A stretch of 21,902 bases of DNA from a virus. Below, in pieces: positions 1 to 19,544 of this stretch (position 1 is its first letter; every line of letters begins with the position of its first letter). A program made the position numbers and the translations under genes. The notes beneath the pieces were generated by a model. It did no database searches and was not told the DNA's origin. It saw only the letters and a program-made list of their open reading frames with translations. The DNA lies in IMG/VR virus record IMGVR_UViG_3300037071_000991, positions 1 to 21,902 of that record; one strand, given 5' to 3'.

Positions 1-1132
1 AAGGCACCGCATTGCTCAGCGTGTCCGATGCGAATCCGGGCGGGTCCAACGCCTCATCGTATGGCACTTCAGCCGGGATACTGCGAATGAGTGTCTTACC
101 GCCATCGGCCGCTGTGTAGGTTGCGCCCTTGACTTCCCAGTAGGTAATCATTGGCCGCACGTCACGGCGGTTCGTGAAGCTGTAGGCGTTGACACCTTCG
201 GTATAGCGCATCACCGGGAAGAGCTCGATCATCGGGTACAGGTTCAGCACGGCGCCACCAACACCGGCATAGCCGGTGTATCCGTCGTCGGTGGTCATCT
301 CGTACCAGTAGTTATTCGTTTGCCCGGAGTCGTTGACGGTCGGTCCGCTCAGGATCGTGACCCGCGTTCCGGCAGCCATCGATGTGACGATAGCAAACGA
401 TATAGCTGGCCCTTCGCGCAGACTCAGCGTCGTACGCACCTCGCCACGGTCTCCGGCTTCGTACTGATTGCTCAGCACGGTTGATGCTTCTTCGTAGTCA
501 GGCGGGAGTCCACTCACCCGCGCCATTCGCACCGCGCCGTCCGGGCAGTCGAACACGCGGTAGCCGAACAGCTTCGATGTGCGCACCAGCCAATCGAGTG
601 GTGATGTTCGCTCGTCGATACGCACATGCCCCCCGTCGATCTGCGCCTCGCCGCCGAGCATAATCGTGGTCACGCCATCGACGTACGTGGTGTCGTCTGC
701 CAGGTAGGTAGGCACGCTGCGCAGTTCGCACAGTGAACGGAACGCATCTTTCAGCGATACCGGGCCGGGTATCTCAATCATCTCCGTGGACTTGTAGCGC
801 AGCCGCGATGCCCAACCCTCGCCGGCGACACGCACCCAGCGTCCCTGATCCGAAATCGCCGCTTCGTCGTTTGGTATGCGCCCGTGGAAGATGCGCCGCA
901 CCGCGCCGTCGTATCCGGCTTCGATCTCTATTTCGGCATTGATGGCCAGTGATGCCGGGCGTGGCGCTTCAACGCGGACCGTGCATGTGCCGATAGGCTG
1001 GTCAACACCGTGGTTGGTAGAGACTTCGGTAACGGCGACGGCCACGCCGCCGATTCGGCAGTACGGACCGACCACCGGCTGTACGACGGCAGCGACCGCT
1101 TCATCGACCGTGGCGAAGGTGATGGCGCTCAC
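1..1132 (-). CDS. Baseplate hub/tail protein with inserted SH3b domain (partial, runs off the left edge)
   Basis: This minus-strand frame is open from a GTG at 1132 to the window edge (377 codons) and lacks its stop. Residues about 1-210 are beta-rich and resemble hub proteins of the gpD/gp27 type (TVRVEAP, then IFHGRIP). Residues about 301-357 hold a second hub-like stretch (RYTEGVN, then TYWEVKGA). Between them, residues about 231-292 read as a bacterial SH3 domain (SLREGPA, GTRVTILSGP, WYEMTTDDGYTGY). Hub proteins sit at the tail tip after the tape measure and distal tail genes, which matches its place here. The start is 18 bases after the preceding stop, in the same frame, with only a weak GGCGG-like ribosome site. 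Tail function is confident; the exact hub role is inferred. No lytic catalytic motif is visible in the part present. Confidence 0.75.
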   Translation of the reverse strand, partial: MSAITFATVDEAVAAVVQPVVGPYCRIGGVAVAVTEVSTNHGVDQPIGTCTVRVEAPRPASLAINAEIEIEAGYDGAVRRIFHGRIPNDEAAISDQGRWVRVAGEGWASRLRYKSTEMIEIPGPVSLKDAFRSLCELRSVPTYLADDTTYVDGVTTIMLGGEAQIDGGHVRIDERTSPLDWLVRTSKLFGYRVFDCPDGAVRMARVSGLPPDYEEASTVLSNQYEAGDRGEVRTTLSLREGPAISFAIVTSMAAGTRVTILSGPTVNDSGQTNNYWYEMTTDDGYTGYAGVGGAVLNLYPMIELFPVMRYTEGVNAYSFTNRRDVRPMITYWEVKGATYTAADGGKTLIRSIPAEVPYDEALDPPGFASDTLSNAVP

Positions 1133-1150: not shown

Positions 1151-1423
1151 TTAGTCTGGGCAGGAGTAGGCGACAGCCATAACAACGTCCGGCATGGCTT
1201 CGATGTCCACTGAACAATTGGCCGGAAGTGTTTCGACGAATGCCTCAGCGTCGTGACGCCCAGACCATCTATCGCTTGCGTCTGTGAGGGCGAAGTATTC
1301 GACGTGCCACGTCGTTTGTGCGTCAGCGTCTGTTTCGGCAGAGAAGTAGACGTAAACGCCGACTGTCGCCGCCAGCCCAATAAAGGCGATGTAAATAGCA
1401 ATAGCGACAATCGTAGAGCGCAT
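1151..1423 (-). CDS. Small single-pass membrane protein of unknown function
   Basis: A 90-residue protein with an N-terminal hydrophobic helix (about residues 4-26: IVAIAIYIAFIGLAATVGVY) followed by a mostly acidic soluble tail with two cysteines (ANCSVD and the C-terminal SCPD). The topology fits a signal anchor with the tail outside the cytoplasm. It lies between the distal tail-like gene and the hub gene, so it may be a tail or host-interaction accessory. The ATG at 1423 lies 13 bases after the upstream stop and has no good ribosome site. An in-frame ATG at 1480 would add 19 unlikely residues. No family is recognised. Confidence 0.55.
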   Translation of the reverse strand: MRSTIVAIAIYIAFIGLAATVGVYVYFSAETDADAQTTWHVEYFALTDASDRWSGRHDAEAFVETLPANCSVDIEAMPDVVMAVAYSCPD

Positions 1424-1436
1424 GGGAGCAATCGTA

Positions 1437-1901
1437 TCATGCCGGTCGCTCCTGCAGTTGAAACAACGCCGTGCATTCACATGAACCGTCGAGGACGATC
1501 CGATCGCCGCTCACCTCCTTGAGCAACACATCTTGTATGCGTTTGTAAATCTGGCCGAAGACGACGACCTCAGCGACAGCACGTATGCCGGTGGTTTCGT
1601 CTGGCGCCGTCTGTGGGAGTTCGCACATCGCCGCGTAGACAGTGAGCTCGCCGCTGGTGTGCTTCAGTGCCAGGAAGTTGCTGTACTCGGTGGTGGTTTC
1701 GAAGAGTAGCCGGTACGTCTGCGTGAGCGGCCCTAAGCCGAGTAGTTGCGTGATGGTGATATTGCCGCCAGGCACATGTCTATCGACGCTGTAGGATGGT
1801 TGCTGCCAGCCAGGCATTCCGGTCGGGTCCACCGAATCCCACAGGATGCCAAAGTTCGTCTCGCCGAAACCGCAATGTCGTTCGACAGTCCAGACGGTCA
1901 T
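1437..1901 (-). CDS. Distal tail-like/minor tail protein
   Basis: A 154-residue beta-rich protein directly after the tape measure gene and before the hub gene, the usual slot of a distal tail (Dit-like) or minor tail protein. It begins MTVWTVERHC and contains several short beta-type segments (GNITITQLLG, YRLLFETTTE, AVAEVVVFGQ). The ATG overlaps the tape measure stop in TGATG, which indicates translational coupling. No catalytic motif is visible. The family is not recognised from sequence; the role comes from gene order only. Confidence 0.6.
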   Translation of the reverse strand: MTVWTVERHCGFGETNFGILWDSVDPTGMPGWQQPSYSVDRHVPGGNITITQLLGLGPLTQTYRLLFETTTEYSNFLALKHTSGELTVYAAMCELPQTAPDETTGIRAVAEVVVFGQIYKRIQDVLLKEVSGDRIVLDGSCECTALFQLQERPA

Positions 1902-4585
1902 CAGTAGCCCCTCTGGTGTGTCTGCAAGGCGCGCTGAAGTGCCGGCACGATCTCGCGCACGATCTGTTCGGTGTTGTTGGCGTTGGCGATGTTGACGGTG
2001 AGATTGATACCGCCGCCACCGGTGTTCTCTAGTCCGGTATGCGGAGTAACGAGCGTTCCACGCGGAACGTTGTACAGGGCGTCGCCGCTCGTGAATGCGA
2101 TGCCTCCGCCAGGGAAGGTCAGACGCTCTGTGCCGTACTCGCCCATGCGGGCCACCACGCCACCGGAGTCGTAGCCCATGACGCCACCGAGACCAGCGGC
2201 GCCGATCTTCTGCTCGACGATGTTGATATAGGTCGTGGCGACCGATCCGTCGATTGCTGCGAGTGCTGAGGCAACGCCACGTATCGTGCCGCTGGCGTTG
2301 TCCTGCGCATTGATTGAAGCCGTGTAGGCCTTTTCGTAGTTGTTCGCCGCAGACTGCGCGGCTCCGATGTCGTCAACCGCATCCTTATTGTCAGCATCAA
2401 TCTTGCCGGTTGATGTACTGGCATCCCAGGTGATTGCCCGGTTTTCCGCCTCAGTTATTTGCTCGATTGCCGGACCAATATCGGCGTCAACCGTAGCAAC
2501 CGTATTGAGATTCTCCCAGGCGTTGGCGTCGCCCATTACCTCTTCGTACGCCGCTTCCGCCGCTGACACATCTCCGCCAAATGTGGCAACCCACGTCGCT
2601 GCTGTGAGTTGACGCATTGTCTCCGTCAAAAGTGTGAGTTCGCTCTGTCCCTCAGTCAGTACCGTGACTGTGCCATCAGCACCGACACTGATGATGCCCA
2701 TATCAACGAGGATGTCTTCGAGTAGAGGATTGGCCGCTATCGCCCCCGCAATCAGGTTTTCCATGCCGGGCGCACCGGCCATTGCCGTTTGGGCAATTTC
2801 CAACGCTTGTGCCGCCGTGGCCGTGTCCATATAGGCGAGGGCGAGGCGTTGCTGGTCGGCTGGTGCATCGGCGAGTCCCGCCCAGTATTCCGCTTGGGCA
2901 GACATCAACTCTTCAATGATTGGAGCTTGCTGACGCTGAATGTCGAGGATTGCCGTTTGGATCGTAACGTTGTCTTCGGCGATGTTGTTTGCGAGTCCGA
3001 GACCCTCTGACCAATCGGCCACCGCCTGCGCTTGCTGCCCTACCGCGTCTGTGTTTTGCACAATGACGCGGAAGCCGGCAGATAGCGCATTCGTCGTGTT
3101 CGTGTAGGCAGCGGTAACTTCGTTGAATTGCTGAGCAAGATTGGCGCGTGCGAGCTCGAGTACCTGTGCTTGGAATGCCTCGAGTTTTACCTGCGCATCC
3201 ATTGCCTGAAGGGCAGTGCCGTGGAGGGATGATCCTAACTTCTCTGTTACGCCCGCAGCATCCGTCGCTACCCGGTCGTACATCTCGAAACTGTTTGCTA
3301 TCCTATCGACATTCAGCCAATAGTCAGCGGCATCCATGCGTCCACTGGTAAATGCTTCGTTGAGTGACTCTAGTTGACTGCGCGCCAGGTCAGCGCCTTC
3401 GCCGGTATTGGTGAGAATTCTGGCAACTGATCCCTCTAACTTCGAGAAGTTGTCAATATCTAAGCCGAGCGATTCAAATGTATCGGCCAGCAAATTGAAC
3501 TCGTCAATTTGCGCTTGGGTCACATCATCGGTGCCCATAATGTTACTGAGTTCTGAAAACCTATCGAAGTCCCTCATCATCTGATCAGTGATGGCATTGG
3601 TGGCATCACCGAGTTCTAAGAGAGACCCCTCACCATTTTTGGCCAGTTGGGCGAGTACCGCGTCGAGTTGATCGCTTCCTTCGTCAAAGTCATCAAAGAT
3701 GTCTTCCATGTAGTTGTTTTGCGACATCTTATCGAGTTCATACAACCCGACCGCGATGGCACCGAGAACGCCGGCTTTGCCCCACGCCTTCGCGAACGCG
3801 GCCGCGTTCGTCGTGGTAATTCCCAACATTCCGCTGAGTCCACCAAGCGCCGCCGTGGCAGCGGTCCATGCTGCCGATACTCCGGGCATCAACACAAGGA
3901 GCGTCTGGAATGCCCCAGTGTGCTCGCCGATGCTTTCCTGCACGTTCTCTAGCTGGTTGCGCAGTCTGTCGAGTGTCCCCGCAGTCGTCGCCGCATACGC
4001 CTCAGCTTGCCCGGCGTACCGTGCTTGCAACGCGGCGAGTGCCTCTTCCTTGCTGGCGTTCTCATCAAGCACGATACCCATACGGGCCAGCGTGCCGATA
4101 CGCCCGAGTTCCGCGGCTTCGACAATGCGCGTGGCATCAGCCAGCGAGATACCGCGACCACGGGCCACGTCCATAATCAACCCAAGCTGATCGATGGCCT
4201 CGCCAGCATCGCCAGTGGATGCCGTCAGTCGGGCAATGGAGTCTGCGGCTTCTTCGTCATCGAAGCCCATCGACACGGCGGCTTCACCAGCGGCGTCGAG
4301 TTGTTCGGCGTATTGCTCGTACGTATCGCCGGATGCTTCGATAGCAGCGCGTAGCCGTTCCTGACTGACTTCGGCTTCAGCGGCCGCTCGTGCGCTGTCG
4401 GCCATGATGCCGGAGACCGCACCGAGCGCTGCACCGATAGCCGCGCCGGTCCGTGAGAACCGCTGCATCGTGGTTTCGGACTTCGACAGGCTGGAATCCA
4501 TCTTGTCAGCAGATGACGCCACCTTGCCGAATACGGCAGACGCACTGTCAGTTGCGGTTATCGAAATGCTCACCTTATCGGACAT
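1901..4585 (-). CDS. Tail tape measure protein
   Basis: An 894-residue protein that sets tail length and is packed inside the tail tube before DNA ejection. It starts with a beta-type segment (KVSISITATDSAS) followed by long Ala-, Glu- and Gln-rich helices. Hydrophobic stretches lie near residues 48-62 and about 225-285, typical of tape measures that insert in the host membrane. The C terminus has the Gly-rich and beta segments usual in this family (GYDSGGVV, FPGGGI, ALQRALQTH). It lies directly downstream of the chaperone pair, the nearly invariant position. With about 1.5 angstrom per helical residue, the length suggests a tail of roughly 130 nm; this is an estimate only. The ATG overlaps the upstream TAA in TAATG. 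No lysozyme or peptidase domain is seen. Confidence 0.93.
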   Translation of the reverse strand: MSDKVSISITATDSASAVFGKVASSADKMDSSLSKSETTMQRFSRTGAAIGAALGAVSGIMADSARAAAEAEVSQERLRAAIEASGDTYEQYAEQLDAAGEAAVSMGFDDEEAADSIARLTASTGDAGEAIDQLGLIMDVARGRGISLADATRIVEAAELGRIGTLARMGIVLDENASKEEALAALQARYAGQAEAYAATTAGTLDRLRNQLENVQESIGEHTGAFQTLLVLMPGVSAAWTAATAALGGLSGMLGITTTNAAAFAKAWGKAGVLGAIAVGLYELDKMSQNNYMEDIFDDFDEGSDQLDAVLAQLAKNGEGSLLELGDATNAITDQMMRDFDRFSELSNIMGTDDVTQAQIDEFNLLADTFESLGLDIDNFSKLEGSVARILTNTGEGADLARSQLESLNEAFTSGRMDAADYWLNVDRIANSFEMYDRVATDAAGVTEKLGSSLHGTALQAMDAQVKLEAFQAQVLELARANLAQQFNEVTAAYTNTTNALSAGFRVIVQNTDAVGQQAQAVADWSEGLGLANNIAEDNVTIQTAILDIQRQQAPIIEELMSAQAEYWAGLADAPADQQRLALAYMDTATAAQALEIAQTAMAGAPGMENLIAGAIAANPLLEDILVDMGIISVGADGTVTVLTEGQSELTLLTETMRQLTAATWVATFGGDVSAAEAAYEEVMGDANAWENLNTVATVDADIGPAIEQITEAENRAITWDASTSTGKIDADNKDAVDDIGAAQSAANNYEKAYTASINAQDNASGTIRGVASALAAIDGSVATTYINIVEQKIGAAGLGGVMGYDSGGVVARMGEYGTERLTFPGGGIAFTSGDALYNVPRGTLVTPHTGLENTGGGGINLTVNIANANNTEQIVREIVPALQRALQTHQRGY

Positions 4586-5302: not shown

Positions 5303-6541
5303 CTACGGATTGGCGGCAATCGCGTTCTTAACGGTGATCTCGATGGGCGACGCTTCGGAGGCATCGACGTATCCTCGAAACTGCCAGGTCGCCGTAATGT
5401 TGTTGTTACGCTCATCGACGGAGAACTCGCCCCAGTAGCCGGCGAAGATGTCGATCTGAGCCAGTTTGGTGGGAATGGTGTGCGCGTTGATCGTCGAGCC
5501 GGTTTGCTTGATACGGATTTTCCGTACCGTCTGCGCTTTCCAGGCGTCGTACTCGTCTCGGTTGTCGAACTCAAGGCGCACCTGACCGGTAACGCGCTTT
5601 TTGCCCTGGTCGATGCGCGGCGCGTAGCTGTCCACGTTCTCCATGAACCGCTTCAGGCTGGCGTTACCTTCGTACGTGACGCTGAACGAGATAAACCGGC
5701 CAGTCTGCACCGTCGTGCCCAGTGTGGCCGTGTCGAGATAGAGCAGCGTGCCCGGCGCGTCGATGACTTCGCGGGTCCGGTCGCTGATACCGGTGGTGAA
5801 CGTGCCGCTGATCTCGAAGGTATCGGCATTGGCGACGGCGCTCGGAAAGAGGCCGGAGATCGTCAGCGTGGTAGCGTCATTGCTGGCAATGCGCCGCACT
5901 TGGCCGATGTTGCCTGCGGTGCCGGTAAGCATGCGCACATACGCGCCCTGGTAAGCGTTGACCACCCAGCCAGCTGCGGCCTTGATGACGGTCGATGTGC
6001 TGCCGCCGGTGGCGGTGTCGTTCACGTCGGCCTTCAGATCGTGCGTGCAGGCTCGTACCGGCGAGCTCCACTTCCAGGCCGCTTCGCTATCATCGATGTC
6101 GCCGGATATCGTGAAGCCTTCGAAGAAGAGGCACGTCGAGCGCCACGGCATACCGGGTGTGCCGTATTCCAGCGTCATCGTGTCCAGGTTGATGCTGTCG
6201 GCAGCCGGTTTGTGCTCGTAGAGATAGCCGGGCGTGCCCTCGGCATCGGAGACGCCAACCACACCGCCAACCAGGCCGTACCGCAAGAGGATCGGCAGGT
6301 CTTCGTACGATAGCGGTTGCTCGTAGGTTCCGGTGATTTCCAGCGGTCCCCAGATTGGCGAGTAGTCGGCAAAGTATGTGCCGGCGAACTCTTCACGATC
6401 CGCGAGTGCACGTTTTGGATCAACCTTCATATTGCCGTAGAGCCGGAAAGTGGGTGTCACTGCCGTCCCGGCCTGCACCTCGGTGCCGCCATATGCGCGG
6501 CGAAGCCCGACGCTGTTCGGAATCTGATTCCAGTTTGTCAC
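5303..6541 (-). CDS. Major tail (tube) protein with inserted beta module
   Basis: A 412-residue protein that forms the tail tube. It precedes the chaperone pair, as tube proteins do. The N-terminal part is tube-like (RLYGNMKVDP, SPIWGPLEITGTYEQPLSYE), and the C-terminal part returns to a beta fold (FISFSVTYEG, TGQVRLEFDNRDEYDAW, ITATWQFRGYVDA). Residues about 175-247 look like an inserted module: a GW segment, then GTAGNIGQVRRIASNDATTL, a pattern known to recur in phage virion proteins. The start is a GTG at 6541 overlapping the upstream stop in GTGA. Length exceeds that of simple tube proteins (about 200-250 residues), consistent with an insertion exposed on the tail surface. Confidence 0.85.
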   Translation of the reverse strand: MTNWNQIPNSVGLRRAYGGTEVQAGTAVTPTFRLYGNMKVDPKRALADREEFAGTYFADYSPIWGPLEITGTYEQPLSYEDLPILLRYGLVGGVVGVSDAEGTPGYLYEHKPAADSINLDTMTLEYGTPGMPWRSTCLFFEGFTISGDIDDSEAAWKWSSPVRACTHDLKADVNDTATGGSTSTVIKAAAGWVVNAYQGAYVRMLTGTAGNIGQVRRIASNDATTLTISGLFPSAVANADTFEISGTFTTGISDRTREVIDAPGTLLYLDTATLGTTVQTGRFISFSVTYEGNASLKRFMENVDSYAPRIDQGKKRVTGQVRLEFDNRDEYDAWKAQTVRKIRIKQTGSTINAHTIPTKLAQIDIFAGYWGEFSVDERNNNITATWQFRGYVDASEASPIEITVKNAIAANP

Positions 6542-8505: not shown

Positions 8506-8880
8506 TTAGGCGAGGTACTCGGCGCCCACGGAATAGGTGAAGCTGTCGGTATCGGCAACGGTCACGGCGACGCGCCATGTGTACGGCAGGACATTCAATG
8601 CGTTCACGTTCGCCGATGCTGCAATATCCGGGTGGATTACCAGCGTCGTCGTGGCAACTGCAGCCAGGGCCGCTGATGCCAGGAGCGTGTAGTAATCCCC
8701 TTGCGCTGTCTTGCCTTGGATGGTGAACGTCACCGCCGCGGCGGCTGGGTCCACTGTGACCTTGACCCAAACGCGCAAACCTTTGGCGCCTGCCGTGTTG
8801 GTGAAGTCGGCGGAATTAACCGCCGCAGTACGTGCCGCTGATGGCAACACTTGAAATTGGCGAATTGCGGAGACTGCCAT
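8506..8880 (-). CDS. Putative head decoration protein, copy 2
   Basis: A 124-residue Ala/Thr/Val-rich beta protein, clearly paralogous to the gene just upstream. Both share a SAARTA segment, VDPAAA, FTIQGKT, QGDYYTLLASAA and a C-terminal EYL. Small beta-sandwich proteins of this kind are often found next to capsid genes and may decorate the capsid surface; this role is inferred. The ATG at 8880 follows the upstream stop by 10 bases, with an AGGGGGG ribosome site. No enzyme motif, signal peptide or membrane helix is present. Confidence 0.72.
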   Translation of the reverse strand: MAVSAIRQFQVLPSAARTAAVNSADFTNTAGAKGLRVWVKVTVDPAAAAVTFTIQGKTAQGDYYTLLASAALAAVATTTLVIHPDIAASANVNALNVLPYTWRVAVTVADTDSFTYSVGAEYLA

Positions 8881-8890
8881 GAGCGCCCCC

Positions 8891-9262
8891 CTAGTTCAGA
8901 TACTCGGCATACGCCGAATAGGTGATCGAGTCGGCGTCAGCGTGCGTTGCCAGCAGACGCCAGACATTGCCCAGCGCGTTCTTCGCAACCGTGTTCGCTG
9001 CCGCCGTGATCTGCGGATGCACGGTCAGTTCGGTATTGCCGACTGCCGTAATCGCCGCAGACGCGAGCAACGTGTAGTAGTCGCCCTGCTGGGTCTTGCC
9101 CTGGATCGTGAAGACCACCGATGCCGCAGCAGGATCGACCGTGCAGTCGATGGTGACGCGCACGCCTCTGGCGAAGTTGTTGGTCTTGTCTCCTGAATTA
9201 TTGGTCGCCGTCCGTGCCGCACTCGTCATCAGTGCGAAGGGCCGGCCGCTCGTTACTGCCAT
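8891..9262 (-). CDS. Putative head decoration protein, copy 1
   Basis: A 123-residue protein immediately after the major capsid gene, paralogous to the next gene (shared SAARTAT-type start, VDPAAAS, FTIQGKT, QGDYYTLLASAA). The composition (Ala, Thr, Val, few charged residues) suggests a compact beta fold. The position suggests a capsid surface protein present in many copies. The ATG at 9262 has AAGGGGA upstream and lies 10 bases after the capsid gene stop. Its partner copy differs mainly in the outer thirds, so the two may bind different capsid sites or be heteromeric. Confidence 0.72.
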   Translation of the reverse strand: MAVTSGRPFALMTSAARTATNNSGDKTNNFARGVRVTIDCTVDPAAASVVFTIQGKTQQGDYYTLLASAAITAVGNTELTVHPQITAAANTVAKNALGNVWRLLATHADADSITYSAYAEYLN

Positions 9263-9272
9263 GTCAGTCCCC

Positions 9273-10541
9273 TTATGCCATTGTGGTGACGACGAAGGCC
9301 GCTGGGCGGAAGACGACGAGGGTCAACCGAACTTCTGCCAACATCACAAAGATGTTGCGAATGAAAAAGTCCGCGTGCTGATCGGCCATATAGATGGCCG
9401 CATCGTTGCGGTCGATAACCGCTGCCTGCGTGCCGTCTCCGACGATGACTGTGCCAGCGGCGATGTTCTCGTCCTCGAGCACTGGCAATCCCCACAGTCG
9501 CGCAACACTGGCGCCCGGTGACGGATCGCCGACCAGGTATTCGCCGGTTGTCGTGGTGATCGTGTCCCAGTCTTCCGTGTCTGCCGGGTTGGCGAGGATG
9601 AATGTGGGTGTCGCCAGTCCGGTGGTGCGTACCAGTCGCTTCGCTCGACGAATGCGGTTCAGGTTTTCGTTGTCCGTGCCGGCGTCGTTGACCGGTGCGC
9701 CAGCGAAGTACGCGGCATCGGCAACCGTGAGGCCCGTCTGATCGAGCAGGCCTGAGATGTTCGGCGCGGTGCCGTTGCCGTTGATGAGTTGCGCACTAAC
9801 GCGCCGCTCTAGTCCGTCACGCAAACGCCCTTCGACGTATGACTCCATCATCGGCAAGTCTTCAAGCATCTGCCGGGTGATGGGAATCCAGTGAGCAACG
9901 ATCCGCACCGGGTGTGCGACTTCCTCGAAGGTGATCGCCGATTCTGGTTTCACGGCGCTGGCATCGTCAACCGCGATTGATTCGTCCACTTCTGCAGCTG
10001 CGTTGGTAAACACGAGTTCCTGCAGCACAACCACGCTATCGGATGATGTGCGGCCGCTGCCGAGCGCCTGGCGTACCGCGCTGATTGGTTCAAGACCACG
10101 CCGGATGCCGGGCATCACCTGTGGCAGCAACGTCGAAGCCGACGCGGTGCCAGAGAAGATCAGCGCCTTCTCGTGCAGGATGCTTTCGGTGTGGAACTTC
10201 TTGCTGGTGCCGTGCGGGTTCTGCCGGAAGTCTTTAAGCTCCGCAGAGTCAGCGAACTTCGCGCCGAGTGAGCGAAGATCAGGCTCGGTGCCGTTGGCAA
10301 TCTGCCGCTGTGCCGGAGCCGGCTTGGTGAACTTCTCAATGGTGGAATCCACCATGTCGTTTGTCGCTGCGCGCTCTTCGGCTTTGGCGAGATCGGCGAT
10401 AGCCTTGTTGAGTTGACTCACCAACTCGTCGTACCGCTGATCTTCCTCAGCAGTCAGCGTGCCTGCCTTGCTTTTCTCGGTGAGCGGTTTGGCGTCACTA
10501 GCGATGGTTGCGATCATTGCTCGCAACTGTTCAGGGTTCAT
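9273..10541 (-). CDS. Major capsid protein (HK97 fold)
   Basis: A 422-residue protein that forms the icosahedral shell. The N-terminal region of about 75 residues is a charged coiled coil (EEDQRYDELVSQLNKAIADL), the scaffolding delta domain that the prohead protease removes in HK97-like phages. The rest shows HK97-like features: LLPQVMPGIRRGLEPIS, a domain with HWIPITRQMLEDLPMMESYV, GNGTAPNISGLLDQTG, and a C-terminal VRLTLVVFRPAAFVVTT strand. The ATG at 10541 has AGGAG upstream and follows the protease stop by one base. The open frame runs 41 codons further, but that part overlaps the protease gene and is unlike a capsid N terminus. Length is normal for the family including the delta domain. 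Confidence 0.93.
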   Translation of the reverse strand: MNPEQLRAMIATIASDAKPLTEKSKAGTLTAEEDQRYDELVSQLNKAIADLAKAEERAATNDMVDSTIEKFTKPAPAQRQIANGTEPDLRSLGAKFADSAELKDFRQNPHGTSKKFHTESILHEKALIFSGTASASTLLPQVMPGIRRGLEPISAVRQALGSGRTSSDSVVVLQELVFTNAAAEVDESIAVDDASAVKPESAITFEEVAHPVRIVAHWIPITRQMLEDLPMMESYVEGRLRDGLERRVSAQLINGNGTAPNISGLLDQTGLTVADAAYFAGAPVNDAGTDNENLNRIRRAKRLVRTTGLATPTFILANPADTEDWDTITTTTGEYLVGDPSPGASVARLWGLPVLEDENIAAGTVIVGDGTQAAVIDRNDAAIYMADQHADFFIRNIFVMLAEVRLTLVVFRPAAFVVTTMA

Positions 10542-10542
10542 A

Positions 10543-11307
10543 TCAATCTCCTGTAACGATGCCCCGCTGCCGTAAGTCGGCAAGCAGGAATGCCAGTTCT
10601 GCACCTCGGTTCCGCGTTGCTGTATCGAGCGTGGGCAGCACGGGCGTCTCGCTGTTACTGCCACCCTCGGCGGGCATGTCGGATAGGAGTTGCATTAGTT
10701 CGGCACGCTGCTCTGGTGTGAGCTCGGCGGCCAGTTTGGATATGTCGAGTTCGGATCGGTAAGAGTTGACAAGCGCCGGATCGACAGCCGGGAAGCTGAC
10801 GACGCTGTTCTCCATCATCCGCACGCCGGTCAGGATGCGTATCTCGTTGCGCGGGATCGTCTTCACCCAGTCGGGTGCGCTGCTGAAGTCCAGCGGATCA
10901 GAGTCTTCGGCCGTGCGGTCGTTGATGCGCCGGAAGCCAATCGACAAGCCGTACTGCACGTCATCCTTGAGATGCGCGCGAACCGTGCTGCCCCACATGC
11001 CATCGTCGGAGACTTTGGCTTCGATGGCCAGGCCTTCGGCGTCTTCCGACATCGCCTTATGTGTGCCGATGGTGTGCTCGTGTTCGTAGCGGAGCAGGAT
11101 ACGGTTACTGCCGGCCGGTCCACGCTGAGCGATGGTCTCGGCGAACGCGCCAGGCGCGGTGGCTTCGGCGTAACTATCCACCACCCAGAACTTCGAAGCG
11201 TAGCCGGAGAGGATGCCTTTTTCGGCGTCGGCTTTGACTTCGAGAGGGTCGCGGGATTTGGTAAGGATGCCGTCGTAACTGGTACGTCTGTTGTCTGGTG
11301 ATTCCAT
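10543..11307 (-). CDS. Prohead maturation protease (U35/HK97 gp4-like)
   Basis: A 254-residue serine protease that cleaves the capsid delta domain during maturation. Family motifs in order: GYASKFWVVDSYAE near 35-48, the histidine region LLRYEHEHTIGTH (candidate catalytic His76 or His78), the EGL turn at 91-93, and the serine motif YGLSIGF (Ser122). The C terminus after about residue 175 is helical and charged, which fits a scaffold-like tail. The start is taken as the ATG at 11307, with GAGG about six bases upstream. A frame extension to 11340 would read into the hairpin before the gene. It directly precedes the capsid gene with one base between. Confidence 0.9.
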   Translation of the reverse strand: MESPDNRRTSYDGILTKSRDPLEVKADAEKGILSGYASKFWVVDSYAEATAPGAFAETIAQRGPAGSNRILLRYEHEHTIGTHKAMSEDAEGLAIEAKVSDDGMWGSTVRAHLKDDVQYGLSIGFRRINDRTAEDSDPLDFSSAPDWVKTIPRNEIRILTGVRMMENSVVSFPAVDPALVNSYRSELDISKLAAELTPEQRAELMQLLSDMPAEGGSNSETPVLPTLDTATRNRGAELAFLLADLRQRGIVTGD

Positions 11308-11321
11308 GCTGCGCCTCGTGC

Positions 11322-11372
11322 AAGAGAAAAGGCCGCGCAACCGGATCGCTGTGTCCGATTGCTCGCGGCCTT
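11322..11372 (-). terminator. Probable intrinsic terminator or attenuator upstream of the prohead protease
   Basis: On the minus strand AAGGCCGCG (11372-11364) pairs perfectly with CGCGGCCTT (11337-11329). Inside, CAATCGGA pairs with TCCGGTTG (one U-G pair) around an eight-base loop, with only a two-base AG bulge. That makes about 17 base pairs. The stem is followed in the transcribed direction by TTTTCTCTT, while the other strand lacks a T tract. It lies between portal and protease genes, so it would have to be partial or antiterminated. Confidence 0.65.
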
Positions 11373-11419
11373 GTGGCTCTACTGCCCGGCGAGCATGGGT
11401 TCAGATGCAATTGCCAATA

Positions 11420-11428
11420 ATCATATCA
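11420..11428 (-). promoter_or_regulatory. Possible extended -10 promoter element
   Basis: TGATATGAT, a TGn-TATGAT extended -10-like motif on the minus strand, begins at the portal gene's own TGA. A transcript from it would begin about 7 bases downstream and run into the hairpin at 11372-11329 before the protease. No convincing -35 is seen. AT-rich context supports it weakly, and chance occurrence is quite possible. Confidence 0.2.
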
Positions 11429-13588
11429 TGCGTCCGTACCAAGTGGCACAGCAAGAATTGGCACGACGATCAGCGAACCGTTCGGATGCTCGGCTTCCGT
11501 GTGCAGTTCCACCATCGACAGCGGTGTGATAAGTCCGTGTCTATCAGCGCACGTCAACCCATCAAGCGCACCGTAGTCGTCAACATGTTCAGGATTGTCC
11601 AGCAGTTCGACTTCGTTGACTTCGCCACTCTCGGCATAAGCCAGCGCGCTACTACGGTTGTATGCCACCTGTGATTCAGTCCTCGCAATTGTTTCAGCCC
11701 TGCCCTTGTACGTCGCTTCGACGTGCTCACGAATAGCCGCCGACAACTCCTGCAACGTCGTGCCCTGCAGCAATCCATCGGCAACGATCCGGCTGATGGT
11801 GCTGCGTGTTGTTTCGTGAATATCGACGATGCGCTCACCGAGTACCTGCAGCAGCTTCAGGATGCGCGGGTTATTCACGGTCCAGGTGGTTTCGGAAACG
11901 ACGAACGTATCCGCTGCCGCGAAGGCGGCCTCTCCATTGGCCATGTAGAACTTGCGCAACACGGCTTCGAGTTCTTTGTATTCCTCTTCCCAGTCGATCC
12001 ATTCGAGATCGCGCCGTTCGTGGTTGTCCGCACTCTTGGCGATGTTGGTAGCGATCCTATCGCCCTGCGCTTTCAGCATCTTGCCGATATGCCGTGTGCC
12101 GACTTCGATGAGCCGCTGTCTGTCCCGTCGTGTTCGCCCGGCGATGTTCGCTCGCACCTCGAGCGCATCGGCAGACATCCGCGTTTCGTCAACATACCGC
12201 CGTGCCGATGACGTTGACGCTGGCAGCGCTGGTGTCTCGGGTGTGCGACTGGCGGTGATCGCTGCTGGCAAGTCTTCGAAGCCGGCCAGTGAGTTCGCCG
12301 ATACCAGCATCGTCGAGAACGGCACGGCGAACACATCACCCTGTGCGTTCGGCAGTGGATCGAGTTTGATCGCCATGCGCGCTTCGTTGAGCGTAATCAT
12401 GGTCGCGGCATAGTCGGCTCTGACTCTCGTGTGCAGCGCATCGGTATCTTCCTGCAATGCCAGCACCATAGACGTGTCGAACGCCAGCCGGTATTGCGGG
12501 TGCATCAGTCCGAACTCGGGTAGCAACGACCGGCCTAACGCGGCAGCGAGCCGCAACCGCAACGGCTCCGCGCCGTACCGCTGCAGCGCCGTCATGTCTC
12601 CGTCTGTCTCGGTGGTGGTCAGACTGCCAGCGACGAGCGCGTGTCGCGCACCAATCAGGCCAGGAGGCACGCGGAAGGCGCTGCATATCTTCAGTTCGGT
12701 GAGATCGCGCAAGTCCGGCCAGGCGAGCGTGTTCACGTCGCCTTGTATCTGTTGCAACTGCCAACCGCCATGCAGATACGGGATCTTGCCGTAGGCTTTC
12801 GATCCGCCATACTTCTGCTTCCAGTTCTCCTGCATCACTTCGATAGTGGCCGTGTCGTGCTGCACGTCCGGGTGTGTCATCACGTACATCGGAATGCCGC
12901 CAGCGTCGAGGAATGCCTTAAGCCAGTTCGTGAGCTCGTTGTCGATACCGATCTCACGCGCTGCCACGGTCACCGGCGAGACACCGCGCCGCTCCATGCG
13001 GTCGTCGTGCCGCCACGGTAGCCAGATGAGATCGTTGGCTGGTATCAACCGGATCGGTGCGCCAGGAACTTTGTACTGGTAGTCGTTGGAATCACCGCGT
13101 GGATTGGCCAGCCAGTCAGCACGCAACGGCCACAGTTCGACGGGAAGATTGGCGCCACTCCGCACCTTCTCCACGACGGCGTAACCCATAATGCCCATCT
13201 GGTAGACGAGCAACGAGAGGAACTCGGCGTCTTCCATGTGCGGGTTGGGCCGGTTGATGATGCCCTGCAGCGCCCGGCTGGCGCTATCGGTGGCCGCGTC
13301 CCACTCGCCCTCAGTCGTGCGTGACTCGACGGTCAGCTGCGCTTCAGCCACCGCGTCACCGAGATAGGTGGCGCAGGCAAACACGGTGATCGACTTGCGC
13401 GCCGCGTCACGCGCCTTGTCGCTATCCCACTCGTAACCGGACCAGGACGCCTTGCGCGCACCGAACCAGTCGGGCAAGCGCTCGGGATCGTAGTCTCCAC
13501 GCAGCATCAGCGGCGCGCTATCTATCCGGTAGTCAATGATTGGGTTAGTTGTCTTGGAAAGGTTGCCGAGGAAGGATCGAAGGCCCAT
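11426..13588 (-). CDS. Portal protein fused to a MuF-like head morphogenesis domain
   Basis: A 720-residue fusion. The first two thirds match an HK97-type portal, the ring through which DNA is packaged: PNPHMEDAEFLSLLVYQMGI, GYAVVEKVRSG, NDLIWLPWRHDD, RGVSPVTVAAREIGI, a long helix with TETDGDMTALQRY, and FDTSMVLALQED. The last 150-200 residues match MuF-type proteins (GTTLQELSAAIREHV, IARTESQVAYNRSSALAY, GLTCADRHG, HPNG). Portal and MuF domains are usually separate genes, though fusions are known. The usual HPNCRC zinc cluster reads HPNGSL here, so metal ligands seem lost. The ATG at 13588 gives the common MGLRSFLG-type N terminus; an in-frame ATG at 13597 is the alternative. The stop is followed by a 118-base gap with a hairpin. 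Confidence 0.9.
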   Translation of the reverse strand: MGLRSFLGNLSKTTNPIIDYRIDSAPLMLRGDYDPERLPDWFGARKASWSGYEWDSDKARDAARKSITVFACATYLGDAVAEAQLTVESRTTEGEWDAATDSASRALQGIINRPNPHMEDAEFLSLLVYQMGIMGYAVVEKVRSGANLPVELWPLRADWLANPRGDSNDYQYKVPGAPIRLIPANDLIWLPWRHDDRMERRGVSPVTVAAREIGIDNELTNWLKAFLDAGGIPMYVMTHPDVQHDTATIEVMQENWKQKYGGSKAYGKIPYLHGGWQLQQIQGDVNTLAWPDLRDLTELKICSAFRVPPGLIGARHALVAGSLTTTETDGDMTALQRYGAEPLRLRLAAALGRSLLPEFGLMHPQYRLAFDTSMVLALQEDTDALHTRVRADYAATMITLNEARMAIKLDPLPNAQGDVFAVPFSTMLVSANSLAGFEDLPAAITASRTPETPALPASTSSARRYVDETRMSADALEVRANIAGRTRRDRQRLIEVGTRHIGKMLKAQGDRIATNIAKSADNHERRDLEWIDWEEEYKELEAVLRKFYMANGEAAFAAADTFVVSETTWTVNNPRILKLLQVLGERIVDIHETTRSTISRIVADGLLQGTTLQELSAAIREHVEATYKGRAETIARTESQVAYNRSSALAYAESGEVNEVELLDNPEHVDDYGALDGLTCADRHGLITPLSMVELHTEAEHPNGSLIVVPILAVPLGTDA

Positions 13589-13701
13589 GCACCGCATCTC
13601 GCAGAGTAGTCAAGCCAGCGCTATAGATCGTTGTGTCTACGCTACTGCGGCAAGCTATGCTCTGCTACCCGGCAGCAATGGGTTTCACATTCAATTACAC
13701 A
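13589..13701. other. Intergenic gap before the portal gene
   Basis: This is one of only two gaps of about 100 bases in the window. It is locally AT-rich next to the zinc-finger gene. It holds a short hairpin (13663-13677, TGCTGC/GTAGCA with a three-base loop on the minus strand) without a U tract. No open frame, tRNA or convincing promoter is seen. A CATAAT hexamer overlaps the upstream stop but has no clear -35. Confidence 0.4.
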
Positions 13702-13929
13702 TTATGCTATCACACTTGCATAGATCACCGAAACCACATGACACCCAGGACACGTCTGCTGCAAGTCATCGTGCAGTGGTTGGCTCATTGTCCATTGCCG
13801 AGAAACGATGATGACCAGCCGCGTACCAACCAGTTCACCGAGCACGCGATGACAGTTTGGGCATTGCCACATGGTGCGGTCTTCACCGCGTCTGTCGGTG
13901 CGGGTAACAATGCTGGCTGGTTGCGGCAT
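13702..13929 (-). CDS. Small zinc-finger protein, Com-like
   Basis: A 75-residue protein whose middle and end carry a four-cysteine finger: CPNCH near residue 23 and CPGCH near residue 60, with a beta segment between (VGTRLVIIV). A short CxxC, beta hairpin, CPxC layout resembles Com-type zinc fingers of Mu-like phages, where Com activates translation of a DNA modification gene. That analogy is inference only. The ATG overlaps the large terminase stop in TGATG, and a second ATG precedes the WQCPNC segment (residue 20). It lies between large terminase and portal, where a small regulator or packaging accessory could act. Confidence 0.68.
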   Translation of the reverse strand: MPQPASIVTRTDRRGEDRTMWQCPNCHRVLGELVGTRLVIIVSRQWTMSQPLHDDLQQTCPGCHVVSVIYASVIA

Positions 13930-15239
13930 CAGCCGAATCCTCCTGTGCTCTGTCCACCGATCAGGTTGTACAGCGCCGTCAATGCCCAGACTGCCGCATC
14001 CATCCGGTCAGGAGACGGCATACCAGGCACCCAGTTGCACTGCTGGTCTTCGAGTGTGTCGAACCGTCCAACGTGTGAGATCAATCCCTGTTCGTAGAGC
14101 GCGCTGATCGGCTCAGCCCTCGTTGCCTTGCCCCGGCTGGCGTGGACTTCCTTGACCGCGATACCTGGCCGCACGGTGCGTAGCGTTGTACGGATCATCT
14201 CGCCGCCCTGGTTCGTCTCGACGACGATGGTGTCAGCTTCGTGCGCGTCGTAGCCACCGACAGCGCGCCGCGCCCACTCGAGTGGCTGGCCACGCAATGA
14301 CAGATCAGCCAGGATGTAGCCGCGCTTGTCGCTGCCGGCCGCCGCGACGATGATGCCGGTTTCGTTACTCTCTTCGCCGCTGGTGGTTGCTGGATCAACG
14401 GCGACGACGACGGTAACGAGTGACACGCCGTCCGGTATGTCGATCATTCGGTGCTTGTCGATGGTGGCCAGGTTCCATAGCGCGCCCTCCACATCCTCGA
14501 GGAGTTCGCCTTCGATCTCCTGCCTGCCTTTGCGCGTGCCGCCGTAGGCTTTCGTGACGGCGGCGACGAACGACTCCGGCAGGTTATCGGCGTTGTCATA
14601 GAGCGATGCGCGAGTGACAACGGTGCGACTGTCTGGCTCAGTGGCTTCGTCGATGAGTTTGCGTACCCGGCTGATTGGTCGCGGCGTCGTCGTCACCATC
14701 GTCTGCGGGTTGGCACCCTCGCGCATGCCGTACATAAGGTTGTCCCAGGTGTCATCGACGTACTTCCACGCGGCGAGCTCGTCGCACCAGGCCGCGTCGT
14801 GCTGCGGTCCTCGCAAGCGGTCCGGCTCTTCAGCGCTGTACAGGTAGACGGCGGCATGATGACTCGGGAAGTTGACGCGCCGCCGTGAGAGTTGCGGAGT
14901 GACGTTCATACCGCGCTTTCTGCCCAGCGTCTCGATGCCAGACGGTCCTTCGACCATGATGTCGCGCACGTCTGCCGATGTGGCGCCGACGAGGGCGATG
15001 CGCTTCGAGCCGGCAGCGATCATGTCCAGCACCCACGATGCGCCGGCGAACGTCTTACCAGCGCCACGTCCAGCGATGATGGCCCACGTATCCCACGCGC
15101 CGGACGGCGGCATCTGGTAGTCGTGACGGTGTACGGCTGGTTCATTCGGTGTCGTCCGAATCCCGGCTACCAGGCTTGTGTAGAGTGAGTGTTCCAAGGT
15201 CTGCGGCAATGGCGGCACGCTCAAGCGGGTCACTGACAT
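13929..15239 (-). CDS. terL: Terminase large subunit
   Basis: A 436-residue packaging motor ATPase and headful or site nuclease. Motifs: Walker A AGRGAGKT (56-63), Walker B region HDAAWCDE (147-154), coupling motif TTTP (183-186), and the RNase H-like nuclease acids D282 (AVDP), E341 (VVETNQGG) and D411/D414 (SPDRMDAAVWAL). The family is the phage terminase 6 type, with GRGAGKT in place of a lysine-rich P-loop. The first ATG gives 98 bases of overlap with the small-subunit gene. An alternative ATG at 15113 begins MPPSGAWDTW just before the ATPase core and would avoid overlap, so the true N terminus is uncertain. Length is normal for the family. Confidence 0.95.
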   Translation of the reverse strand: MSVTRLSVPPLPQTLEHSLYTSLVAGIRTTPNEPAVHRHDYQMPPSGAWDTWAIIAGRGAGKTFAGASWVLDMIAAGSKRIALVGATSADVRDIMVEGPSGIETLGRKRGMNVTPQLSRRRVNFPSHHAAVYLYSAEEPDRLRGPQHDAAWCDELAAWKYVDDTWDNLMYGMREGANPQTMVTTTPRPISRVRKLIDEATEPDSRTVVTRASLYDNADNLPESFVAAVTKAYGGTRKGRQEIEGELLEDVEGALWNLATIDKHRMIDIPDGVSLVTVVVAVDPATTSGEESNETGIIVAAAGSDKRGYILADLSLRGQPLEWARRAVGGYDAHEADTIVVETNQGGEMIRTTLRTVRPGIAVKEVHASRGKATRAEPISALYEQGLISHVGRFDTLEDQQCNWVPGMPSPDRMDAAVWALTALYNLIGGQSTGGFG

Positions 15240-15675
15240 GGCGGTTCACCGAATCGTAGAGCCGGGCAATGAGCAACATCGCCTGCTCGCCCGTAATCAT
15301 CTGCTGCATATCGACAAGTCTCCGACGTTCTGACTCGACGAGAGAGCGGCGATCCTGAATCACGTACCGGATGTCTCGCCATGTGGCTGTGTCTGGTGTT
15401 TCGTCGTCGTCGATCTGACTGACCAGTTCGTTGAGTCGCACGTCGATCAGGGCAATATCGCTGTGAAGACTGAGCAGTTCCGGGTCGTGCATCGCCTCCC
15501 GAAAAGATGCCAGCGCCTTTGTCGGCAAATGCTTGGAGTAGCGCCCGGTAACAGTGTGATGGTGCTCGATACCTCGCTTCTGGGTACCGCCGTGGTGGTA
15601 ACAGACACCATTGGCCATCGCTTGCGCGTTGCATCGCTTCTTGGTACGTTTTGATGTTGCTGTGCATTTCGCCAT
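15142..15675 (-). CDS. terS: Probable terminase small subunit with N-terminal zinc motif
   Basis: A 177-residue protein directly upstream of the large terminase. The first 30 residues carry a compact Cys/His motif: C4, C15, C25 and H27/H28 ending in HHGG, a pattern often found in small proteins encoded just before terminases. The rest is mostly helical and charged (DVRLNELVSQID, SLVESERRRLVDMQQMI), which fits a ring-forming DNA recognition subunit. No helix-turn-helix is obvious. The start is the ATG at 15675, one codon after an in-frame GTG; the ribosome site is weak (GGTTGAG). The role is inferred from position and helical content. Confidence 0.65.
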   Translation of the reverse strand: MAKCTATSKRTKKRCNAQAMANGVCYHHGGTQKRGIEHHHTVTGRYSKHLPTKALASFREAMHDPELLSLHSDIALIDVRLNELVSQIDDDETPDTATWRDIRYVIQDRRSLVESERRRLVDMQQMITGEQAMLLIARLYDSVNRHVSDPLERAAIAADLGTLTLHKPGSRDSDDTE

Positions 15676-15697
15676 CACTCAACCGATTACCGAATAC

Positions 15698-15919
15698 TCA
15701 TGCGATAACATCACTCGCCTCCCCAACCACCGCCACGCGCAGCGCCTCACTCTCCGCCTGGTAGCGGGCGATGATCGGTTGGACTGTGGCATATGGGTCG
15801 CACGACTCGATATACCGCACCAGCGCCGCAATATCGGCCCGTTGCTGGGCGATGGTGGCGCGCTCACTAACACAGGGAATGAACTCATCGGGATCCGGGA
15901 GAAATTCCGTAAACTCCAT
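15698..15919 (-). CDS. Small acidic protein of unknown function
   Basis: A 73-residue acidic helical protein (FLPDPDEF, then ERATIAQQRADIAALVRYI). Its ATG at 15919 overlaps the upstream stop in TGATG, which fixes the start; a longer frame to 16027 is shadow sequence. The repeated helical heptads suggest a small coiled coil. It lies between the nuclease region and the small terminase gene. No family is recognised. Confidence 0.6.
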   Translation of the reverse strand: MEFTEFLPDPDEFIPCVSERATIAQQRADIAALVRYIESCDPYATVQPIIARYQAESEALRVAVVGEASDVIA

Positions 15920-16534: not shown

Positions 16535-17254
16535 TCACACCGTCGCCTCCTCGTGCTCAGCTACCCGCCGCGCCTTCTCCATCGCTCCAATCGTGTCCGT
16601 GCGCATCAACGGCAGTCCTGCCCTCTTTAGCGAGTCCCGCTCTTTGTCCAACAACGCCTCCAGTCCGGCATCGTCCACCGGTGACAACTGCGGGTAACTC
16701 AGTGACTTTGTGCGCAGCACCACCGGCTTAACCTTGCCCTTAGCCCACGGCGGCGGTGCAGGGGAAACCCTGGGCTCCGGCTCGCGTACTACCCGCTCAC
16801 GTGCCGCCGCAGATCGGAGACGGCTGGCCTCCATTGCCGATGATCCAGCGCACTCCCGGCTGCAGTAGCGACGCGGAGGACGATTCGATACGACGTACTG
16901 GAATGATTGTTGACAGTGCGCGCATGTGGTCATCCGCTTCTCCTGCGACGCGGCCCGCTCGTCGCGCTCGAGTTGCCGGCGATGATCTGCCGCACATCTG
17001 GCGCCGCAGTATTTCTTGCCAGCCTTCGATGTGCTGAACCGTTGTTTGCAATGCGGACAGTAGTGCTCTACGGTTTTTGCCTCTCGTACCGCCTGGCGCT
17101 TTTGCAGCGCGTTGAGCTTGTCCCTACAACGACGAGAGCACACCTGCTGATGCGGGTTGTTGACCAGCGGCCAGAAGTCGATACCGCACTGCTGACACTG
17201 ACGAGACGGCAGCACACGGGTGAGTGTCAGCGGTTGTGTGGGGATGGTGCTCAT
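16535..17254 (-). CDS. Triple zinc-finger protein of unknown function
   Basis: A 239-residue protein with three consecutive four-cysteine fingers: C20-C23/C39-C43, C66-C69/C83-C87 and C111-C114/C131-C135, each CxxC-x13-16-CxxxC. Basic helices join them (ALQKRQAVREAK, HRRQLERDERAA). The C-terminal 90 residues are Pro/Arg-rich, then acidic and helical (DDAGLEALLDKERDSL). The finger spacing resembles zinc ribbon or MYM-like knuckles that bind nucleic acid or protein. The ATG overlaps the methyltransferase stop in TGATG. No known family is assigned. Location between a DNA methylase and a nuclease suggests DNA binding. Confidence 0.75.
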   Translation of the reverse strand: MSTIPTQPLTLTRVLPSRQCQQCGIDFWPLVNNPHQQVCSRRCRDKLNALQKRQAVREAKTVEHYCPHCKQRFSTSKAGKKYCGARCAADHRRQLERDERAASQEKRMTTCAHCQQSFQYVVSNRPPRRYCSRECAGSSAMEASRLRSAAARERVVREPEPRVSPAPPPWAKGKVKPVVLRTKSLSYPQLSPVDDAGLEALLDKERDSLKRAGLPLMRTDTIGAMEKARRVAEHEEATV

Positions 17255-18132
17255 CAGGAAACTCCGGCGAAAAGAGGGAGTTCCTGTGTCGCGGTTGCCT
17301 TTTGCAGATTCTTGACAGCGACCGCGTAATACCCGGCCTTCAGTTCGACGCCGATGAACTTCCGGCCATTGACGATGGACTCATACCCCTCGCTACCGAT
17401 GCCCATGAATGGACTGAGTACGGTTTCTCCTTTGTTGCTCCACAACTTCACACATCGTTCGATGGTTCCGAGTTGCAGCGGCGCGATGTGGCGCTCGTCT
17501 TTCTCTTCTCGCGCGCCGGCGAATTGCAGCGTGTCCGACTCCCGGATGCCGTACCAGATCGGACGGGCGTATTGAATCCAGTCCTCATTGCTGATGTCGT
17601 CCGGCAGAATCGGCGTCTGGTTCTCGCCTGGCGCCCGCATCAGCAGGATGTAATCAGCCAGCGCCGGCCGGAGCCACGACGAATCACGGCGCAACGACAC
17701 GAACAGGAGCGACTTGCTCTTGGTGCGGATCGCCTGCGCTTGCGGATCTTTGTCAATGCAGACTTCACCGTGATACACAAAACCGGCATCCTGAAAGTGC
17801 CTGATCGTGTCACCACGGAAGTCGAACAGCCCGATAGTTCCGTGCGTTGCCTTTGTGCTCGGAACCTGCGCTACATGCACCGCGCAGATACGACCCGGCT
17901 TGATGACGCGCACGAGCTCCCGGCTGATGAATCCGAAGTGATCCCAGAATTGCTCAATCGAGCGGGAGTTACCTAAGTCCCGATCACTTGCCGAGTAGGT
18001 ATAGAGCGATTGGAACGGTGGACTGAACAGAGACAGGTCAATACTGTGATCCGGTAATCCTGGTAACACTTCGGCGCTGTCGCCGTTGTATATCGCGTAC
18101 TGGTCGGTGACTTCCTGATTCAGAACATTCAC
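17254..18132 (-). CDS. DNA methyltransferase (N4/N6, beta-order motifs)
   Basis: A 292-residue SAM-dependent DNA amino-methyltransferase. The catalytic motif SPPF (37-40) precedes the SAM-binding motif SPFMGIGSEG (240-249) with IGVELKAGYY after it; this order defines the beta class. A middle segment has VCIDKDPQAQAIRTKSKSL, common in phage enzymes. No restriction enzyme follows, so it is an orphan methylase that may protect phage DNA or mark it. GTG at 18132 is preferred because AGGAG lies seven bases upstream and GTGA overlaps the helicase stop; a GTG at 18150 also exists. It forms a pair with the upstream helicase. Confidence 0.9.
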   Translation of the reverse strand: MNVLNQEVTDQYAIYNGDSAEVLPGLPDHSIDLSLFSPPFQSLYTYSASDRDLGNSRSIEQFWDHFGFISRELVRVIKPGRICAVHVAQVPSTKATHGTIGLFDFRGDTIRHFQDAGFVYHGEVCIDKDPQAQAIRTKSKSLLFVSLRRDSSWLRPALADYILLMRAPGENQTPILPDDISNEDWIQYARPIWYGIRESDTLQFAGAREEKDERHIAPLQLGTIERCVKLWSNKGETVLSPFMGIGSEGYESIVNGRKFIGVELKAGYYAVAVKNLQKATATQELPLFAGVS

Positions 18133-19544
18133 GCTGCGACTCCTATCCACTCAGGCAATTGCATTGGAACGGTTGGTTCGTAGGGGATGGTTTGCCGAGC
18201 GCTGCCCAGTTCGGCCCGCTCATATTCGATGACGTGCTTCACCAGTTCATCGGCGATGCGCTTGGCGTCTTTCTCTTTGCTCAGCACGTTGTGATAGATC
18301 GGTTCTTCCAGCGATGACAGCACGATATGGGCGTGGACTTCGCGGTCCTGCCCGAATCGGTAGCATCGACGAATCGCCTGGAAATACTGTTCGTACGAAT
18401 CGCCGAGTCCAACGAATACCATCCGGGCACATCGCTGGAAGTTCATCCCAAATCCGGCAATCGACGGTTTGGTAATCAGCCATTGCGCATCACCGGCCGC
18501 GAACGCTTGCAACGCGTCGGCCTTGGCTTCTGGCGACTGACTGCCCTCGACGTGTAACGCGCCCGGCAATGCTTCAGCGAGTGCGTTGCCCTCGTCATTC
18601 AGCCCACACCAGATCAGCCACGGCTCATCGGCCTCAGCCCTGATCAGGTCGACGGCGGCCCGTACCCGGTCATCAATCGTCTCCTTGCGGACTTTGGTTC
18701 GATCAGTAACGCCTTTCAGCGTGGTAGCGAAAAGTTGCCCTGCTGGTACGTAGTCCGATGCCACGAACCGCGGCAGAATCGACAACGGAGGCAGGTCGAA
18801 TCCATCGTCGGGGTATCCCAGATCCGATGGCTTCTGCAGTGACATGCCCCACGATGCCAGCCATTCGTAGAACGGCCCTTCTGCATGGCCCTTCAGTCGC
18901 CAATCGCGTTCGTCGTGGACAAAGAACGTGGCCAGCATTTCGACGCGATTCATCACCCCGAGAAACTCGGCATGATTGGCAATCTCGCTGATGTCGTTCG
19001 GCGCTGGTGTTGCCGTGCAGCACAGCCGGTACGGTGTCTGTGAAAACTGTTTTATCAGCGCCGAGCGAGTCTTTCCGTCATGCGACTTCAGGATGCTTGA
19101 TTCATCCAGGACGACCGCGCCAAAGTCTCTCGCAGAGAACTTATGCACCATCTCGTAGTTCGTGATGGTGATGCCGTCATGCGCGATGCCGTCCCGGCTG
19201 TATCGAATCGGCACACTGATCTTTGATGCCTCGTCAATCGTCTGATGGGCCACGGCCAGCGGCGCCACAATCAGCACACGCTCACCCGTCAACCGTGCCC
19301 ACTCGACTTGCATCCTGGTCTTGCCCATGCCGGTCGTCGCGAAGATCGCAGATCGGCCTTTGCGCAATGCCCAGCGGACTAAATCCATCTGAAACGGGAA
19401 TAGGCTAGGATGCAACTCGCACTCGTCAACATCGATGCCCGAAGCCGGAAACGTCAGAGTCTTTGCGCCGAGGAATCGTTCGTAGTCGAGTGCCGGTGGC
19501 GGAGGTAGTGACTCCGCCACCTTCCCGTTCATCTGTCCGCTCAT
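18129..19544 (-). CDS. SNF2-type superfamily 2 helicase
   Basis: A 471-residue DNA-dependent ATPase/translocase. Motif I is TGMGKT (71-76), with the preceding FPFQMDLVRWAL Q-like region. Motif II is DESS (147-150) in place of DEAH, typical of phage SNF2 relatives. Motif III is TATP (177-180), and motif VI is IRRCYRFGQ (391-399), the SNF2 hallmark. The C-terminal domain is complete, and no extra DNA-binding domain is attached. The ATG overlaps the upstream stop in ATGA, and its stop overlaps the methyltransferase start. Length is that of phage-type SNF2 helicases rather than chromatin remodellers. A role in replication, recombination or modification is plausible. Confidence 0.92.
   Translation of the reverse strand: MSGQMNGKVAESLPPPPALDYERFLGAKTLTFPASGIDVDECELHPSLFPFQMDLVRWALRKGRSAIFATTGMGKTRMQVEWARLTGERVLIVAPLAVAHQTIDEASKISVPIRYSRDGIAHDGITITNYEMVHKFSARDFGAVVLDESSILKSHDGKTRSALIKQFSQTPYRLCCTATPAPNDISEIANHAEFLGVMNRVEMLATFFVHDERDWRLKGHAEGPFYEWLASWGMSLQKPSDLGYPDDGFDLPPLSILPRFVASDYVPAGQLFATTLKGVTDRTKVRKETIDDRVRAAVDLIRAEADEPWLIWCGLNDEGNALAEALPGALHVEGSQSPEAKADALQAFAAGDAQWLITKPSIAGFGMNFQRCARMVFVGLGDSYEQYFQAIRRCYRFGQDREVHAHIVLSSLEEPIYHNVLSKEKDAKRIADELVKHVIEYERAELGSARQTIPYEPTVPMQLPEWIGVAA
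18140..18144 (-). promoter_or_regulatory. Ribosome binding site deciding the methyltransferase GTG start
   Basis: AGGAG on the minus strand, seven bases before the GTG at 18132, sits inside the end of the helicase gene. It favours the GTG at 18132 over the GTG at 18150. Confidence 0.6.

Follow-up and report, generated by a model that had tools for sequence, protein, structure and literature searches.

A gene at one end of this record encodes a protein in which a beta-barrel of the phage tail-tip hub type precedes a bacterial SH3 domain (SH3b), and the tail genes leading to it follow the order tube, tape measure, 154-aa protein, hub. Our preferred reading, which we hold with slightly better than even confidence, is that the gene specifies a tail-tip hub (Tal), probably of a siphophage, carrying a wall-binding SH3b inserted between sub-domains 3 and 4.

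The hub gene and its neighbourhood

The window, that is the whole stretch analysed, is an entire linear IMG/VR record of 21,902 bp. Nearly all of its genes are carried by the minus strand and are arranged in phage order: terminase, a portal-head morphogenesis fusion, protease, major capsid protein, connectors, tail tube and tape measure. Past the tape measure, a 154-aa protein and a small open frame precede the hub gene. The tail genes are:

5303-6541, minus strand: tail tube protein (Pfam Phage_tube_2, E 1.3e-8)
1901-4585, minus strand: tape measure protein, 894 aa (Pfam TMP_3, E 0.009, below the cut-off; related tape measures at 31 viral loci)
1437-1901, minus strand: 154-aa protein in a Dit-like position between tape measure and hub, placed by gene order
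2-1132, minus strand: tail-tip hub (Tal-like) protein, 377 aa visible (open frame and hub profile match)

The hub gene starts with a GTG at 1132 and reaches no stop codon before the record ends, so that the C-terminus of the hub and any downstream catalytic domain are out of view. It sits just past the tape measure gene and a putative distal tail gene, the product of the latter (the 154-aa protein, a Dit by position) having no Pfam match and, as its best PHROG match, only phrog_5870 at E 0.058. In known siphophages a Tal trimer is stacked beneath a Dit hexamer. The phage carrying this hub gene is probably a siphophage; no sheath gene is seen in the record which, being a partial genome, makes that absence weak evidence. 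Another record, whose capsid protein is identical, stops shortly past the capsid gene, short of the hub.

Several other features of the window merit mention. A 90-aa open frame at 1151-1423 (minus strand), flanked by the 154-aa tail protein and the hub, has an N-terminal membrane-spanning stretch (MRSTIVAIAIYIAFIGLAATVGVYVYF). This is an unusual site for a membrane protein, and the GC3 of the frame is 0.59 against 0.64-0.78 in its neighbours. Just past the major capsid gene, two adjacent minus-strand genes (8506-8880 and 8891-9262; 124 and 123 aa) have products that clearly resemble each other and share TIQGKTxQGDYYTLLASAA; the genes constitute a tandem duplication, perhaps of head decoration proteins. 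At 17254-19544 (minus strand), a SNF2/DEAD-type helicase gene adjoins one for an N6/N4 DNA methylase, a pair resembling a phage-borne modification unit.

The SH3 domain and the hub-type barrel

Within the 377 visible residues the following parts can be distinguished:

791-1066, minus strand: residues 23-114, first hub beta-barrel (sub-domain 1), from hhalign against 36 Phage_GPD-type hubs
548-613, minus strand: residues 174-195, ERTSPLDWLVRTSKLFGYRVFD, in register with a motif of the alpha/beta sub-domain of GPD hubs, from the extension of that alignment
266-430, minus strand: residues 235-289, bacterial SH3 domain SH3_3 (Pfam PF08239, E 1.1e-9, 38.7 bits)
2-247, minus strand: residues 296-377, following the SH3b, where hub sub-domain 4 is expected; unconfirmed, with no significant match

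Judged from its sequence, the SH3 domain is real and beyond chance. An SH3b pattern had been noticed earlier at about residues 231-292, and the Pfam match bears this out, its 38.7 bits exceeding the curated SH3_3 cut-off of 27 bits. In a six-frame search of the window this was the single match to PF08239, and SH3_3 was found in none of 47 other phage or viral records (for the most part remote relatives by terminase or capsid, some of them fragments). Alignment with Chloroflexota SH3b domains reveals the typical L-x-L-R-x-G-P start and central Trp. The best matches are SH3b domains of cellular proteins from Chloroflexota, which say little about the host since this was the only phylum surveyed with the hub protein. 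The SH3b family is known for peptidoglycan binding and, by analogy with its family, the domain described here may bind peptidoglycan as well. The GC3 of the SH3b stretch (0.70) is like that of the remaining gene (0.72 and 0.73); nothing in the composition therefore points to a recently acquired foreign segment or to a chimeric assembly.

Single-sequence AlphaFold models were set aside, together with their fold matches, for low confidence. The visible 377-aa protein, with no homologues to align, reached a pLDDT of 33; a 75-residue SH3b piece reached 52, with three strands, and retrieved no SH3 structure from the PDB.

The profile comparisons support a hub-like N-terminal part over residues 23-114. 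The hub profile consisted of 36 aligned sequences, some being one protein fetched twice, gathered among Chloroflexota genome proteins via phrog_196 and Phage_GPD; one of these hubs matches Phage_GPD at E 1e-17. With the full-length query, hhalign aligned residues 23-114 to this profile with a score of 37.4 (E 4e-4), and residues 1-125 alone gave E 9e-5; scores for the region ranged from 36.5 to 37.4. By comparison, the top score of 40 shuffled sequences was 21.8 (mean 16.5, sd 2.9) and that of eight other proteins of the window was 18.8. An earlier, smaller hub profile picked the identical region. Because the HH-suite probability of the match is modest (35-60%), the case for a hub is built jointly on E-value, controls and gene order. 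Below threshold, the two best matches to the N-terminal part are hub proteins: the phrog_196 baseplate hub (E 0.12, residues 65-135) and All3320 (PDB 7b5h; E 0.47, residues 56-97 on 63-104), which we take to be the hub of an Anabaena contractile injection system.

Profile searches for SH3_3 and for phage hub families, as advised in the earlier note, thus gave a divided result, with SH3_3 over its cut-off and no hub family over threshold. Indeed, Pfam yielded no Phage_GPD, Prophage_tail or other hub match above cut-off anywhere in the protein, the hub flanks matched no Pfam, PHROG or NCBIfam family above threshold, and neither Firmicute Tal (Prophage_tail) nor XkdQ-like profiles matched the hub protein.

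Placement of the SH3b and its possible meanings

The evidence is good that this SH3b belongs to a hub-type protein, whether lying inside it or following on directly, and that the gene comes just past the tape measure. The extended hhalign alignment is collinear up to residue 195, although the segment at 174-195 is not significant when taken alone. As the register holds to this residue, the end of the alpha/beta sub-domain, the SH3b, which starts about 40 residues further on, begins where sub-domain 4 is due. The Tal structural domain spans 350-400 residues (PMC9437275), whereas only some 230 precede the SH3b, so that sub-domain 4 should come after it.

The earlier note had seen hub-like sequence on both sides of the SH3b, and this held for one side. 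The 82 residues after the domain (296-377), which are only the visible part of a cut-off gene, scored no better than shuffles against the hub profile; on the upstream side, VRMARV, cited as hub-like, is found around residues 201-206, beyond the signal-bearing barrel. That the SH3b is inserted in mid-hub is therefore something we infer, since the hub-like part stops at the equivalent of sub-domain 3 and the 82 residues behind the SH3b have no significant match to sub-domain 4. Set against the definition of an evolved Tal, a foreign module inside the structural domain, the module is present and the second flank is unconfirmed.

The same 82 residues bear on a more conventional reading, that of a tail-associated lysin made of hub plus enzyme, with the SH3b as its wall-binding domain, the catalytic domain past the record end, and either a linker or the first part of the enzyme following the SH3b. 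SH3b domains are the usual companions of lytic enzymes and are mostly found alongside them, the gene does continue past the record end, and a hub match is lacking in residues 296-377. However, no Pfam or PHROG enzyme family matched these residues either, and the segment before the SH3b is too short for a complete Tal structural domain (PMC9437275); we consider such a lysin unlikely. The domain might instead be a structural or docking module that binds another tail-tip protein (Dit, a receptor-binding protein or an accessory peptidase) and not the wall. Hub insertions with structural roles are indeed known, namely the plug domain of T5 pb3 and the HDII-insertion of lambda gpJ (PMC10721106), but the best matches in the Chloroflexota searched are SH3b domains of cellular proteins, not of tail proteins, and no partner protein was identified, so that docking appears quite unlikely. 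It is very improbable that the protein is some other tail-tip component, hub-like in its first barrel only and not the central hub: although significance is limited to residues 23-114, the hub register holds through residue 195 and the gene sits just past the tape measure and 154-aa genes.

If the protein is a Tal with an inserted SH3b, as we prefer, its N-terminal part would form a gp27/VgrG-like structural domain and, as in known phages, trimerise beneath the distal tail ring. The SH3b module of about 60 residues would sit in the loop joining sub-domains 3 and 4, its ends near each other, so that the hub barrel could still close. Inserts between these sub-domains in Brussowvirus Tals project outward (PMC9437275), and the SH3b would be expected to do likewise and to touch the wall. 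Three copies per tail tip would then bind host peptidoglycan or another wall polymer and hold the tip on the wall during tube opening, a putative role in adsorption. A stronger version, in which the SH3b between sub-domains 3 and 4 is the sole wall-facing module of the tip and the hub, having no lytic enzyme, grips the wall without cutting it, is possible but doubtful.

Relatives and comparison with known systems

The full hub protein had no homologue in viral contigs, genome contigs, phages or plasmids. Chloroflexota matches of the full-length query were essentially the SH3b of cellular proteins and hence not hub relatives; those of the N-terminal query were noise, the best-looking one not being a phage hub. 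An SH3b scan of viral contigs returned only an unrelated Mu-like phage protein. Searches by way of the major capsid, terminase and tape measure proteins gave no hub relative in the sequences searched, and no virus possessing this hub, whether SH3b-bearing or not, was present in the collections and records searched.

The tape-measure search led to the 31 viral loci. The closest relative, IMGVR_UViG_3300031965_000033, matches the tube at E 3.5e-102 and the tape measure at 6e-62, and a 160-aa protein is also common. Its 367-aa candidate hub was rejected as a relative, as it aligned significantly with neither the window hub protein nor the GPD profile; a motif resemblance to the window hub seen by eye was lost under shuffling. 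The tail tip of this phage (10001-18300), with a 971-aa protein, a pectate-lyase-like 605-aa protein and the 367-aa hub candidate, is wholly unlike that of the window despite the related tube and tape measure, suggesting exchange of a tail-tip module past the tape measure. Another related phage, IMGVR_UViG_3300049734_000140, carries several HNH-type homing endonuclease-like frames between consecutive tail genes (9359-15704, minus strand), on the opposite strand.

Published modules in the gp27-like Tal domain (PMC7291167, PMC9437275) make the arrangement less unusual than the earlier note took it to be. No case of an SH3b between hub sub-domains 3 and 4 was found in the literature searched, and the SH3b-bearing hub is probably a modest variation on a known design that puts sugar-binding or wall-cutting modules at the same place. 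If the preferred reading is true, SH3b joins carbohydrate-binding modules (CBMs) and lysins among the modules that phages put in a conserved hub, and points to a tail-tip wall-binding step in phages whose hosts are uncultivated; functionalised hubs are, as a principle, already established.

By described architecture, one close likeness is with the Tals of Streptococcus thermophilus phages SW13 and TP-778L. In these Brussowvirus Tals, wall-degrading modules borne on linkers are inserted between gp27-like sub-domains 3 and 4, far off axis and at or near the wall (PMC9437275). There the inserts are a glycosyl hydrolase and a peptidase, both lysin modules, whereas here there is one small SH3b. Evolved Tals and Dits, in which CBMs lie within the structural domain (the gp27-like domain in Tals; PMC7291167; Oenococcus phage Vinitor162, PMC8540738), likewise have a binding module in the hub or Dit itself and no C-terminal fusion; they differ in having CBM folds, not an SH3b fold, and in belonging to phages of lactic acid bacteria. 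With Phage_GPD/VgrG-type hubs (PF05954), including Chloroflexota eCIS-like hubs and Anabaena All3320, the protein shares a profile match over its first barrel, at a level under the Pfam threshold, and no SH3b was noted in those hubs. Finally, it has the L-x-L-R-x-G-P start and central Trp in common with SH3_3 domains of cellular proteins, but their second typical Trp (TGW) is a Tyr here, and the carrier is a tail protein.
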